In this document: piece after piece, positions 5,119 through 12,738 of the stretch
Layout of the letters: every line of letters starts with the position of its first letter
Numbering within the stretch: position 1 is the first letter of the stretch
DNA from: a bacterium
GTDB lineage: Bacteria > Gemmatimonadota > Gemmatimonadetes > Gemmatimonadales > Gemmatimonadaceae
DNA: 16,625 nucleotides
NCBI GenBank assembly: GCA_021802745.1
Contig: JAJZRK010000055.1
Span: forward strand, 1-16,625
Reading direction: 5' to 3'
Notes under the pieces: generated by a model
The model's input: the letters and a program-made list of their open reading frames with translations, nothing else
Databases searched by the model: none
What the model was told of the DNA's origin: nothing
Translations under genes and position numbers: made by a program

Positions 5119-5499
5119 ATGTCGGGCACGTTGGCGTCGGCGGCGATCAGCCGGGCTCTCGACGCGGACCTCATCACCCTTCTCGACCTGCAGGCGGCCG
5201 AGGAAGACGGAGCACTGTTCGACGCGGACCTCGACGAGGACGACGAGTTCGAGGATGAGGATGACGAGGAGGACGACGAGGAGGACGAGGAGGACGAGGA
5301 GCTCGAGGATGACGACGTCCTCGACGACGAAGACGAGGTCGCGATTGATGACGACGACCTCGACCTGGACGACGACGGGCTGCTCGACGACGACGACGAC
5401 GAGCTGGACGAACTGGACGACGACCTGATTGACCTGGACGACGAGTACGACAATCTGGAAGATGACGACGAACCGAAGGGGGGAGCGTTTGACGGGTAG
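5119..5499 (+). CDS. Small extremely acidic Asp/Glu-rich protein
   Basis: The protein has 126 residues, of which about 69 (47 Asp and 22 Glu by hand count) are acidic, against only two basic residues. Residues 1-34 look like an ordinary amphipathic segment (SAAISRALDADLITLLDLQAA, about 7-27). From about residue 35 to 119 it is almost continuous Asp/Glu with scattered Leu, Val and Ile, and it ends KGGAFDG. GGGAG-type sequence (gggag, 5105-5109) lies 9 nt before ATG 5119, a sensible ribosome site. The gene follows typA by 31 nt. I do not recognise a family. Possible roles include a charge-mimic binding partner for a basic surface, or a cation-binding protein, and both are speculation. Its acidic repeats could also be slippage-prone DNA. 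Confidence 0.65.
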   Translation: MSGTLASAAISRALDADLITLLDLQAAEEDGALFDADLDEDDEFEDEDDEEDDEEDEEDEELEDDDVLDDEDEVAIDDDDLDLDDDGLLDDDDDELDELDDDLIDLDDEYDNLEDDDEPKGGAFDG

Positions 5500-5587: not shown

Positions 5588-5658
5588 AAGTGCTTTGAGT
5601 GCCTTGAGTTAAGTGGCAGTTGACCCACGTGGCTGCACTGGCGAGATTTCAAGGTTCT

Positions 5659-5732
<74 letters not shown>

Positions 5733-5747
5733 TGTTGATGGAAACGC

Positions 5748-5781
5748 AAACCCCGCTACGGCTTGGGCCGCGGCGGGGTTT
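5748..5781 (+). terminator. Hairpin terminator of tRNA-Ile
   Basis: A perfect 9-bp stem, AAACCCCGC (5748-5756) with GCGGGGTTT (5773-5781), encloses a 16-nt loop that can pair further. It begins 15 nt after the tRNA 3' end. The TTT tail is short, but the stem is very stable. A near-copy at the same distance follows the decayed tRNA at 12704-12738. Confidence 0.8.
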
Positions 5782-8294: not shown

Positions 8295-10174
8295 GGGGTG
8301 ACTCCATCGTAGAGATGCAAGCGCGCAATCGCTGATTCGATGGCCGCGTACGCGGTTTGGCCAAGTCCGCAGATCGATGCATCGCGCATCGCCGAGCCGA
8401 CGTCGTCGAGCAGCGCGAGCTCCGCCTGCACGCCGCCGCGCGCCTGTCCCGTCGCGAGGCGGTGCAGCGATTCCTCCTGGCGCACGGTGCCGACACGGCA
8501 CGGCACGCACTGTCCACAGGATTCGTCGCGGAAGAAGGCGGCAATGCGCAGCAGCACCTCCTGCAGGTCCTGTTGATCGTCGAAGACCATCACCACGCCC
8601 GACCCGAGCGTGGCATTGGCCGCGCGGGCTCCCTCCATGGAGAGCGGCAGCTCGACCTCGTCGCTGCGAATGAACGTGCCCGCGGCACCACCAAGCAGCA
8701 CCGCCTGCATGCGAGGCGAGGCGCCGGCCGTGGCGAGCAGGGCTTTGAGCGACGTGCCACAGGGCACCTCGTACACCCCGGGATGTGCGACCGCGCCACT
8801 CAGGCAGAACAGCCGAGTCCCGGTTGACTGCGCGGTGCCGGTGTGCGCGTACGCGGCTCCGCCATGGCGCAGAATCGGCAGCACGTTGGCCAGCGTCTCG
8901 ACATTGTTGACGAGAGTCGGCTTGCCGAAGAGCCCGACCTGCACGGGAAAGGGTGGCTTGCTGCGCGGTTCACCGCGCTTGCCTTCGATGCTTTCGAGCA
9001 ACGCCGTTTCTTCGCCGCAGATGTATGCTCCGGCGCCGCGGCGGATCTCGATGTCGAATGCGAAGCCGCGACCCATAATGTTGGCGCCAAGCAGTCCGGC
9101 GGCACGCGCCTGCGCGATGGCCACCTGCAGCCGCGTGTGCGCCAGCGGGTACTCGGCACGCAAGTAGATGAATCCCTTTTCGCTGCCGGTCGCATAGCCC
9201 GCAATGGTCAGCGCTTCGACGACGGCGAACGGGTCGCCCGTCATCAGCACGCGATCCTTGAACGTCCCGGGTTCGCTTTCATCGGCGTTGCAGACAACGT
9301 AGTGCGGCGCGGCCGGCTGTACGCGAACGGCGTCCCACTTGCGCCCGGTGGGAAAGGCGGCCCCGCCGCGACCGAGGAGGTTTGACGCGCTGAGTTCGGC
9401 AACCACACCGATGGGACCGAGTGCGAATGCTCGGTTGAGCGCCGTGTAGCCGCCCGCCGCGCGATAGGCGTCGAGCGACGTCGGGTCGACGACGCCAACC
9501 CGCTGAAGCAGTACGAGCGAGGCGTCACCCTGCTGCGGCACCCGCGTGGCAGTCAGTGCATCGGCGACGGGTGTCTCCCCGTGAAGCAGCGCCTGTACCA
9601 TCTCGGGCGTCGCGTTGCCGAGCAGCCGCTCGCGCGCGTCGGCGCCGGCGTCCGTGACGAGCAGGGCGGGCGCCTGATCGCAGAGACCGAGGCACGGCGT
9701 GTGCATCCACGCGGGCTGGGACGGGTCGAGCGACACGTGATCGCCGCCTGGTTCGTGACCGATGGCGGGACCCACGGTGGCCTCCGCCGCGGCAGTGAGG
9801 GCGCGGCCGCCGCGACCGCGACAGCCGATGTCATCACAGACGTGCACCACGCGCCGAGGGCGCGGCGACGTGGCGAACAAGGCATAGAACGTCGCCACGC
9901 CCCATGCTTCGGCGGGCGGGATGTGCAGGCGCTCGCACACGTGTCGCAGCCCGCCTTCGCTGATCCAGCCCACACGCGACTGCAGCGCATGCAGCGCGGG
10001 GATGAGTTCGTTGCGGCGTTCGCGCATGGCGCGCCCGCCAAACCCTGCATGCGCGTCCTGCGATGCAATCCGCAGGCCGCCATCCCACCCCGATGCCGGT
10101 GTGCCGAGCACCGCGTCAACGGCCGCGCGCTCGTCGTCGGTGGGAAGTGCATCGGGCAGCTTGATGTCCATCAT
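8291..10174 (-). CDS. fdhB: NuoE-NuoF fusion, NAD-linked beta subunit of formate dehydrogenase
   Basis: This is a 627-residue fusion. The N-terminal NuoE-like thioredoxin-fold domain carries [2Fe-2S] ligands Cys113, Cys118, Cys161 and Cys165 (CDDIGC and CLGLC). From about residue 225 comes a NuoF-like part with the FMN/NADH loop NLLGRGGAAFPTGRKW (265-280), CNADESEPGTFKDR (295-308) and RRGAGAYICGEETALLESIE (378-397). The C-terminal [4Fe-4S] site is SCGQCVPCR with Cys553, 556 and 559, plus Cys602. It should take electrons from the iron-sulfur subunit and reduce NAD+, or run in reverse for CO2 reduction. Fused NuoEF beta subunits are known in soluble NAD-dependent formate dehydrogenases such as Methylorubrum Fdh1. 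The start ATG 10174 overlaps the alpha-subunit TGA as ATGA, with GGAAGG just upstream. The next gene overlaps as GTGA. Confidence 0.94.
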   Translation of the reverse strand: MMDIKLPDALPTDDERAAVDAVLGTPASGWDGGLRIASQDAHAGFGGRAMRERRNELIPALHALQSRVGWISEGGLRHVCERLHIPPAEAWGVATFYALFATSPRPRRVVHVCDDIGCRGRGGRALTAAAEATVGPAIGHEPGGDHVSLDPSQPAWMHTPCLGLCDQAPALLVTDAGADARERLLGNATPEMVQALLHGETPVADALTATRVPQQGDASLVLLQRVGVVDPTSLDAYRAAGGYTALNRAFALGPIGVVAELSASNLLGRGGAAFPTGRKWDAVRVQPAAPHYVVCNADESEPGTFKDRVLMTGDPFAVVEALTIAGYATGSEKGFIYLRAEYPLAHTRLQVAIAQARAAGLLGANIMGRGFAFDIEIRRGAGAYICGEETALLESIEGKRGEPRSKPPFPVQVGLFGKPTLVNNVETLANVLPILRHGGAAYAHTGTAQSTGTRLFCLSGAVAHPGVYEVPCGTSLKALLATAGASPRMQAVLLGGAAGTFIRSDEVELPLSMEGARAANATLGSGVVMVFDDQQDLQEVLLRIAAFFRDESCGQCVPCRVGTVRQEESLHRLATGQARGGVQAELALLDDVGSAMRDASICGLGQTAYAAIESAIARLHLYDGVTP

Positions 10175-12102
10175 GCCTTCCGAGCGGAGAGCGCGGCGCG
10201 TTCCACACGCACCGCGCACGCTTTGTATTCGGCCGTGCCGGACTTTCGGTCGTACGCGTCATTGGTCAGCACATTCGTGTTGACGCGGTCGGGAAAGTGA
10301 AACGTCATGAACACGAGTCCGGCACGAAGACCGCGGTCGATGCGCGCGGGACACGTGACGTCGCCGCGGCGTGAGACGACGCGCACCAGTGCTCCGTCAG
10401 CCAGGCCGAGGCGTGCGGCATCCTCCGGCGACAGGTCGAGCGTCTCCCCATGGTGCAGCGGTGATGCGTAGCCGCCGCTCTGCACGCCGGTGTTGTACGA
10501 CTCCAGCCGGCGGCCCGTCGTGAGCAGCAGCGGAAACTCGTCATCGGGGACTTCCGCCGGTCCTTGATGGTGCACCACGGAGAATGGCGCCAGCCGACCG
10601 CGTGCGGGTGTCTCCCAGAGCCGTCCGTGCAGGAACGACTCGCCCGGATGCGACTCGTCGGGGCAGGGCCACTGCAGGCCCCCCAGCGCTTCGAGGCGCG
10701 CATAGCTCATGCCGCCCGCCATCTGCGGCGCGACCGTGCGGTACTCGTTCCACACCTCTTCGGCGGTCGGATTGCCCAAGTCGGTGCCGAGCCGACGCGC
10801 CAACTCGCACAGAATCCATAGTTCGTCACGTGCCCCGGCGGGTGGCTCTTTCGCCTTGCGCACGCGCTGCACCCGGCGTTCGGCATTGGTGACGGTTCCC
10901 TCGGCTTCGCACCAACTGGCGGTCGCCGGCAGCACCACGTGGGCGAGTTGCGCGGTCCGCGTGAGGAAGATCTCCTGCACCACGAGATGCTCGAGTCCCA
11001 GGAGTATGTGCTCCACCTTGTGGCCGTCGGCGTCACTCTGTGCGGGGTTCTCTCCCGCACAAAGCAGTGCGGTCATCTCGCCGGCTTCCATGGCGTGCAG
11101 CATCTCGGTGAGGTTCCTGCCGTACCGCGGCTGGATGGCTACCCCGTAGTGCGCCTCGAAACACGCCCGCACCTTCGGATCGAGGATGTCCTGAAATCCC
11201 GGAAGCCGGTTGGGCAGCGCGCCCATGTCGCCGCCGCCCTGCACATTGTTCTGTCCGCGTAGCGGATTGCACCCGCAGGCCCACCGCCCAATGTGGCCCG
11301 TTAACAGACACAGATTGATGAGCGCGAGCACGTTGTCGACCGCGTTGTGATGCTCGGTGATGCCGAGCGTCCACGCAATCATGGCCCGGCCGGCCGTGGC
11401 GAATGTATGCGCCGCCTCGCGGATCAGCTCGGCGGGGACGCCGGTAATGCGCGCACCTTCGGCGAGCGTGAACTCCTCCACTGACGCCTTGTACGCCTCA
11501 TAGCCGGTGGTGGCGTTGGCGATAAACGCCTCATGGGCGAGGCCCGCGTGGATAATCTCACGCGCCATCGTGTTCGCGAGCGCGATGTCGGTGCCCACGT
11601 TGAGGCCGAGCCACACGTCTCCCCATGTGGCCGACGCGGTGCGCCGCGGGTCCATCACATAGAGTCGCGTGCCGTTGTTCACGCCCTTGAGCAGGTGCTG
11701 GAACCAGATAGGATGCGCGTTGCGCGCGTTCGAGCCCCAGAGGAAGACAACGTCGGTCTCCTCCACCGCCTGAAAGGAGTTGGTGGAACCGCCGGAACCA
11801 AAGACCGTCGCCAGACCGACGACGCTAGGTGCGTGTCACGTTCGGTTGCAACTGTCGACGTTATTGGTGCCGAACGTGACGCGCGCGAGCTTTTGCGCGA
11901 GATAGTTCATCTCGTTCGTTGACTTCGAGCAGCTGAAAACGCCCACCGCGTTGGGGCCTCTGGCGTCGAGTACGCGCTTGAAGCCGGCGGCAGCCGCGTC
12001 AAGTGCCTCGTCCCACGTGGCGGGGCGCAGAACGCCGTCTTCGCGAAGCAGGGGAGTAACGAGACGCTCATAGGCGCCGGCTGGGGCGGACCTGGTGGTC
12101 AT
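10171..12102 (-). CDS. fdhA: Selenocysteine formate dehydrogenase catalytic subunit (lacks N-terminal cluster domain)
   Basis: Read through one in-frame TGA at 11838-11836, this gene encodes 643 residues of the Mo/W-bis-MGD oxidoreductase fold. The TGA is codon 89, in NNVDSCNRT-U-HAPSVVGL, aligned with the catalytic Sec of E. coli FdhF with the conserved His next to it. The sequence continues in frame with VEETDVVFLWGSNARNAHPIW, GITEHHNAVDNV, NPLRGQNNVQGGGDMGALPN and the C-terminal cofactor domain (TTGRRLESYNTGVQSGG). It should oxidise formate to CO2 or do the reverse. The N-terminal CxxCxxxC...C cluster region normally on the same chain is missing; the protein begins near ERLVTPLLR, and the missing part is the gene at 7323-8294. 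ATG 12102 was chosen for homology. It has no clear Shine-Dalgarno sequence, and the frame stays open upstream to a GTG at 12282 with unconvincing protein sequence. If the TGA were a stop, only 88 useless residues would result. Confidence 0.92.
11806..11838 (-). promoter_or_regulatory. Bacterial SECIS element and Sec UGA codon
   Basis: In the RNA, UGA (11838-11836) is followed by 18 nt and then the loop GGUCU (11817-11813). The loop is closed by a 7-bp stem, CGUCGUC (11824-11818) with GGCGACG (11812-11806), containing one U-G pair. As I recall it, the E. coli fdhF element has the same GGUCU loop, which SelB contacts, at the same 18-nt distance. The bulged U of the E. coli stem is not obvious here. 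This hairpin would recruit SelB and Sec-tRNA to decode the UGA. Confidence 0.85.
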
Positions 12103-12191: not shown

Positions 12192-12345
12192 GCGGAGCGC
12201 ACGGGTGCCGCTGCACGGACGAGTCCGACGCGGGCATGCCCCAGATGAAGGAGGTGATCCTGTGGTGAGTGGCTGGATCCACTACCTGCGCCGCTCCAAA
12301 CGGGCGCAGCTCAGCCGCCCGCGCGAACGGGCAAGCGGGCGGCCT

Positions 12346-12645: not shown

Positions 12646-12688
12646 CCTGATCAACGTGAGGTTCGAGGTTCAGCACCTCGATGACCGG
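12646..12688 (+). pseudogene. Decayed tRNA-Ile 3' half (right boundary repeat)
   Basis: The 43 nt from cctgat to the acceptor end align without gaps to 5690-5732 of the intact tRNA-Ile, including gtgaggt-cgaggttca and cctcgatg, with about nine differences. The acceptor 3' strand reads atgaccgg, not atggccca, so pairing is lost. Upstream, ggctcagg (12626-12633) may be a trace of the D-arm, but the rest is not alignable. It is in the same orientation as the intact gene and about 7 kb away. Confidence 0.7.
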
Positions 12689-12703
12689 TGGTCATCGAGA
12701 CAC

Positions 12704-12738
12704 AGACCCCGCAACGGCCTGGCGCCGGGGCGGGGTTT
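12704..12738 (+). terminator. Terminator-like hairpin behind the tRNA remnant
   Basis: ACCCCGC (12706-12712) pairs with GCGGGGT (12730-12736), followed by TT. It lies at the same 15-nt distance from the tRNA remnant as the intact terminator does from tRNA-Ile, with similar loop sequence (acggc-tgg-gccg). The homology between the two places therefore extends past the tRNA. Confidence 0.65.

Follow-up and report, generated by a model that had tools for sequence, protein, structure and literature searches.

A formate dehydrogenase gene from Gemmatimonadota with an in-frame TGA almost certainly read as selenocysteine at a small RNA hairpin

Metal-dependent formate dehydrogenases (FDHs) attract broad interest as catalysts of CO2/formate conversion, and forms carrying selenocysteine (Sec) can exceed their cysteine counterparts in efficiency by more than 100-fold (excerpted text of PMC7176365, citing Axley 1991). 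A 2026 review describes FdhA as the selenoprotein family with the widest distribution in bacteria (PMC13188914). Among the closest described systems is FDH3 of the actinobacterium Actinomycetospora chiangmaiensis DSM 45062, termed a cytoplasmic NAD-dependent FDH with Sec in its alpha subunit; proteomics detected all three subunits, and this organism required selenium to remove formate, an activity that the authors credit to FDH1 and FDH3 together (same excerpts of PMC7176365). The soluble enzymes FdsABG/FdhAB (Rhodobacter capsulatus, 6tg9; Methylorubrum FDH1, 7vw6) combine 2Fe-2S, Fer4, Fe4S4, Mo/W, NuoE and NuoF domains, with FdhD encoded alongside, and their FdsA is one chain. E. coli FdhF, for its part, carries its own [4Fe-4S] domain.

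Here we analyse a 16,625-nt stretch of DNA (hereafter the window; contig JAJZRK010000055.1 of assembly GCA_021802745.1), which comes from a member of the Gemmatimonadota, unlike FDH3, and encodes an FDH operon on its minus strand (Table 1). Compared by size and Sec alone, its subunits of 643, 627 and 323 residues match the 640, 614 and 316 residues given for FDH3, and its FdhD has 280 residues, as does one of A. chiangmaiensis, whose cluster is not given in the table consulted (PMC7176365, in part). On this match the window's FDH belongs to a known kind. The same operon has all the domains of FdsABG/FdhAB, but with NuoE and NuoF fused, with Sec at the position of the FdsA cysteine, and with FdsA divided between two genes at about residues 302-306, the N-terminal part lying downstream of the catalytic part.

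Table 1. Features of the FDH operon in the window.
Feature	Coordinates	Strand	Basis or detail
Catalytic (Mo/W-bisMGD) FDH subunit gene	10171..12102	-	643 residues including Sec89; terminal stop TGA
TGA predicted to be read as selenocysteine	11836..11838	-	TGA in 79/79 covering loci; aligned with E. coli fdhF codon 140
Putative bSECIS hairpin, 6-bp stem	11807..11823	-	synonymous constraint and covariation
Apical loop GGUCU, 18 nt after UGA	11813..11817	-	layout measured against MG1655 fdhF
Fused FdsG+FdsB-like diaphorase subunit (NuoE, NuoF domains), 627 aa	8291..10174	-	domain and family matches
Iron-sulfur subunit (2Fe-2S, 4Fe-4S ferredoxin, Molybdop_Fe4S4), 323 aa	7323..8294	-	domains and FdsA alignment
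fdhD, sulfurtransferase for bis-MGD cofactor, 280 aa	6484..7326	-	TIGR00129 211 bits, above cut-off

The catalytic frame (12102-10171) spans 644 codons, and its sole internal stop is a TGA at codon 89 (11838-11836), ahead of the terminal TGA at 10173-10171. We chose ATG 12102 as the start; the frame is open further, up to GTG 12282. The residues VDSCNRT precede the internal TGA and HAPSVVGLATVF follows it. A sequence-only reading had placed this codon between CNRT and HAPSVVGL, at the active-site position of Sec-type FDHs and with unbroken homology on both sides, and it was right on each count: the protein aligns as far as its end with E. coli FdhF (631 columns, 39% identity), FdhF having about 60 extra N-terminal residues ahead of the aligned part, and residue 89 falls on TGA codon 140 of fdhF. 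Likewise, U89-H90 pairs with U140-H141, and R282 and Q284 with R333 and Q335, the RGQ motif being in place; we take these Arg and Gln residues of FdhF to be the catalytic ones, with UH at the Mo/W ligand position. Pfam Molybdopterin and Molydop_binding domains are present, and the TIGR01591 score is 641 bits, under the 666-bit cut-off. An AlphaFold2 model of the chain (mean pLDDT 78.4, pTM 0.83) matches NAD-linked FDHs and also E. coli FDH-H (1fdi, 656 columns, E 8.9e-52).

Twelve nucleotides past the UGA starts the hairpin GUCGUC-GGUCU-GGCGAC, a continuous stem of 6-7 bp closed by a 5-nt loop, GGUCU, whose onset lies 18 nt past the UGA. The loop and its distance had been predicted correctly, and E. 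coli MG1655 fdhF (NC_000913.3) has GGUCU at the identical offset. The further claim that this is the arrangement of E. coli fdhF stands for loop sequence and spacing and needs refining for stem and loop size: in its predicted fold, fdhF leaves one U of the stem unpaired and has a loop of 4 nt, so the hairpin of the window is fdhF-like yet not identical. A loose bacterial SECIS model is nearly useless in DNA this rich in GC: of 392 TGA triplets in the window, counted in every frame of both strands, 307 satisfied it at 4 bp or more and 105 at 6 bp or more. The strict layout of fdhF (GGTCT loop at 18 nt, stem of 6 bp or more) was satisfied by 1/392. The folding energy of the hairpin stretch did not exceed chance (z -0.52). 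Rfam gave no match at the TGA/hairpin site, even at E up to 5, and the SECIS therefore had to be judged comparatively.

A scan of GTDB genomes yielded 189 relatives; the 80 best were taken further as loci (L numbers). TGA occupies the site in all 79 of these that cover it, L075 beginning past it, and the record titles of the TGA-bearing loci name eleven phyla, Chloroflexota, Planctomycetota, Acidobacteriota and Actinomycetota among them. Codons 94-98, the five of the hairpin, hold ranks 1-5 of 503 scored columns for synonymous constraint: GTC in 80/80, GTC in 43/43 (rows with Val), GGT in 78/80, CTG in 80/80 and GCG in 77/77 (rows with Ala). A TGA could also arise here through an error in sequencing, or through mutation of an ordinary Cys-type gene that has become a pseudogene, given that the window is a single contig and that Cys-type homologues exist; but the recurrence of the codon across many assemblies, the extreme constraint right after it and the alignment with FdhF to the protein's end make this explanation exceedingly improbable. 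By comparison of sequences, the in-frame TGA is confirmed as real, and it is this evidence (TGA in 79/79 loci, constraint on codons 94-98), not fold energy, that decides the matter. Two loci from Rokuibacteriota, L037 (3869) and L046 (8276), have GGG in place of GGT, which changes the third base of a loop that is constant elsewhere from U to G. In their host genomes SelA, SelB and tRNA-Sec scored above cut-off, and a co-change of the loop with SelB is possible.

To these we added an actinobacterial sample of 198 genomes from the phylum of G020 (the host of L030, titled Thermoleophilia), searched with a Cys query. Matches at E 1e-100 occurred in 114/198 genomes, and in the 30 loci retrieved the Sec-position codon was TGA in 28 and TGC in 2. 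In an alignment of the 80 earlier sequences with 32 further TGA sequences (27 of the 28 plus 5 distant ones; 112 in all, 97 distinct; excluding three duplicate retrievals and L142, whose sequence runs into N), 99.8% of hairpin cells were paired. Double-change cells numbered 18; shuffles averaged 1.8, and 0/500 reached that number. The compensatory changes were C-G to G-C or U-A at one pair and G-C to A-U at the next. When partners were slid by +3 columns as a control, 15 double-change cells appeared, but only 82.6% of cells were paired. The 80 closest sequences alone contained no double change, and their pair variation was matched by 68/500 shuffles; the covariation therefore rests on the more distant relatives.

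In nine Cys homologues, seven of them distant, pairing fell to 61%, the level of shuffles. As judged from these alignments, the hairpin is tied to TGA and has decayed in sequences with TGC or TGT at that codon. TAA or TAG codons inside some distant matches raised the suspicion that the Sec codon had been recoded to one of these. This was rejected: at 12 distant places (eleven with TAA/TAG inside, one without a stop) the Sec-position codon was TGA in 5 and TGC/TGT in 7, and none had TAA or TAG there. In a FastTree phylogeny (106 rows, midpoint root), the two close Cys homologues L119 and L120 fell within the TGA-bearing actinobacterial rows (local support 99), on a long branch. This placement suggests a replacement of Sec by Cys, with SECIS decay, in the L119/L120 branch.

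The sequence-only reading had also foreseen that automatic gene callers would split the gene, as has indeed happened: 88 codons precede the TGA, and the window's protein is recorded as the 531-residue P0002. That record is what speaks for TGA as a true stop, leaving an 88-residue peptide and a separately initiated protein of 531 residues. Yet the segment between the TGA and that start (HAPSV-GL...) is nearly unchanged across 79 loci, the resulting protein would be without its metal ligand, and a conserved, covarying hairpin would be left with no evident role, so that termination at codon 89 is hardly credible and reading as Sec is again preferred. The truncation is widespread in records: of the 120 homologues listed out of 8000 scored, 103, with P0002 among them, begin beyond residue 89, and the 17 that cover it have Cys (16) or Arg (1). 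Such cutting of the Sec gene by gene callers probably leaves the clade under-recorded.

We then searched for the Sec machinery in 30 host genomes (G numbers) chosen from the 80 loci and in 14 control genomes. Above cut-off were tRNA-Sec in 26 hosts, SelB in 26, SelA in 27 and SelD in 28, with all four in 22/30, and one host, G010, had SelD alone; the controls gave 5, 2, 1 and 2, respectively. As 5/14 controls exceeded the tRNA-Sec cut-off, borderline matches are not proof; the 26 counted scored at least 63.8 bits against a cut-off of 47. ARAGORN reported tRNA-SeC(tca) at 11 of the 15 loci given to it, out of 30 fetched, the other four being those below cut-off. The nearest GTDB locus, L001 (81%), comes from the Gemmatimonadetes MAG G001, which had all four components, SelD in two pieces. 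In 12/30 host genomes the best SelD match holds one in-frame TGA, as for a candidate Sec-containing SelD.

Ranked by TypA among 200 genomes sampled from the phylum of G001, the closest to the window were G291 (99%), G258 (96%) and G339 (95%). This FDH was not found in these three MAGs, which may be incomplete; their best matches were at 40-41% and lacked the TGA. Searched for SelA and tRNA-Sec only, all three had SelA, and G291 and G339 had tRNA-Sec, with none above cut-off in G258. The FDH of the window belongs to a mostly uncultivated group, with relatives at 63% identity or more in 27 of the 200 sampled genomes: these, each with one internal TGA (one in two pieces), are among 32 matches at E 1e-150, the other 5 being at 44-46%. 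At the level of sequence, Sec machinery is present both in genomes with relatives of the gene and, as SelA and tRNA-Sec, in nearest relatives of the window. A third way to account for the codon would be decoding as some other amino acid, through a reassigned code or read-through with Cys or Trp. We consider this most improbable: TGA is the ordinary stop of the catalytic gene and of the next two operon genes, so recoding must be context-dependent; tRNA-Sec with anticodon tca occurs in relatives' host genomes; and the hairpin accompanies TGA and is decayed with TGC or TGT.

With a conserved in-frame UGA at the metal-ligand position and a conserved, covarying hairpin, the genomic record supports the selenocysteine interpretation of the sequence-only reading: the TGA inside this FDH gene is almost certainly read as Sec, guided by the small RNA hairpin. 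We regard it as very close to certain that the gene at 12102-10171 specifies the catalytic subunit of an FDH, by its domains a soluble NAD-linked one, in which UGA codon 89 directs Sec insertion by SelB-GTP-Sec-tRNASec on the downstream hairpin. SelB-GTP-Sec-tRNASec would bind the mRNA hairpin just 3' of the codon, Sec89 would ligate Mo or W in a cofactor sulfurated by FdhD, and formate would be oxidised at this site. Electrons would travel through the [4Fe-4S] cluster supplied in trans by the iron-sulfur subunit and reach the FMN and NAD+ of the fused GB subunit.

Two features are less ordinary than Sec itself: the splitting of the catalytic subunit and how widely the records are truncated. 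The four genes of the operon are linked by 4-nt stop-start overlaps (ATGA, GTGA, ATGA), given the chosen starts ATG 10174 for the diaphorase gene, where GTG 10219 is also in frame and where the chosen ATG overlaps the catalytic stop, GTG 8294 for the iron-sulfur subunit and ATG 7326 for fdhD; such overlaps across four genes suggest coupled translation. The Pfam search found no Molybdop_Fe4S4 domain in the catalytic chain, an absence that the sequence-only reading had missed. This domain sits at the end of the third gene, after the 2Fe-2S and ferredoxin domains. In R. capsulatus FdsA (6tg9_A), residues 14-302 align with the iron-sulfur subunit and 306-932 with the catalytic chain; by this alignment the iron-sulfur subunit is the N-terminal third of FdsA that the catalytic chain lacks. 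Overall, the enzyme resembles a soluble FDH of the NAD-linked FdsABG type, with its proximal [4Fe-4S] domain encoded by a separate downstream gene.

A same-strand survey of 86 sequences (80 loci, the window and 5 actinobacterial stretches) detected the Fe4S4 domain in 61, and in 61/61 it lay downstream, within the ferredoxin-domain ORF. It was not found in 25/86, of which 22 end about 2.7 kb or less from the catalytic gene; the other three, L064, L072 and L077, had none despite 8 kb more sequence. No sequence (0/86) had the Fe4S4 motif upstream in frame with the catalytic chain, L018 and L075 being open at that end. In two Planctomycetota loci, L007 (ORF end 7457) and L052 (12871), NuoE-NuoF and the iron-sulfur subunit share one frame, and ORFs of L003, L006 and L009 are long enough for a candidate fusion of this kind. 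The long ORFs of L007 and L052 had raised the possibility of a single catalytic-GB-iron-sulfur chain, which was rejected as the frame differs from the catalytic one. We found no description of a split catalytic subunit in the open-licence PMC literature as far as its text was available, which is weak evidence of absence; the excerpts of PMC7176365 mention no missing [4Fe-4S] domain for FDH3, and those of PMC5029168 and PMC12013277 do not mention Gemmatimonadota.

As to the surroundings, synteny with the nearest genomes ends at the end of an intact tRNA-Ile (5658-5733). Beyond the FDH operon, 12646-12737 resembles 5690-5781: it is a 75%-identical degenerate tRNA-Ile 3' half with the stretch that follows (local score 117, against a best of 45 for 534 random pieces). 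Because synteny stops at the tRNA-Ile and the operon was not found in the nearest genomes, the FDH operon looks like cargo of an island at tRNA-Ile. Remnants of similar kind were seen in L174 and L168. The break in synteny had raised the question of a chimeric contig, which was rejected as both flanks match G291 DNA (81-84% identity on the left, 90% on the right), though on two different G291 contigs. Two further observations concern this region: a plus-strand ORF just before the tRNA-Ile (5119-5499, 126 aa) is extremely rich in Asp and Glu, and the plus strand at 12248-12260, between the operon and the tRNA remnant, reads AAGGAGGTGATCC, presumably the complement of the usual 16S rRNA 3' end and a candidate ribosome-binding site or rRNA remnant.

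Taken across phyla, these loci probably represent a large clade of NAD-linked Sec FDHs whose catalytic subunit is broken at the domain I/II boundary, with the proximal [4Fe-4S] domain, which the Mo/W chain normally includes, supplied in trans by the diaphorase arm (in one frame with NuoE-NuoF in the two Planctomycetota loci), so that two polypeptides would be needed to assemble the active site; the clade would be under-recorded and would have undergone the change from Sec to Cys with SECIS decay in its actinobacterial branch. Because many records give the gene as a fragment lacking its N-terminal part, use of formate and selenium in this group is probably under-counted. With the split chain, nature moreover offers a way to ask whether the catalytic subunit needs a covalently attached [4Fe-4S] domain.
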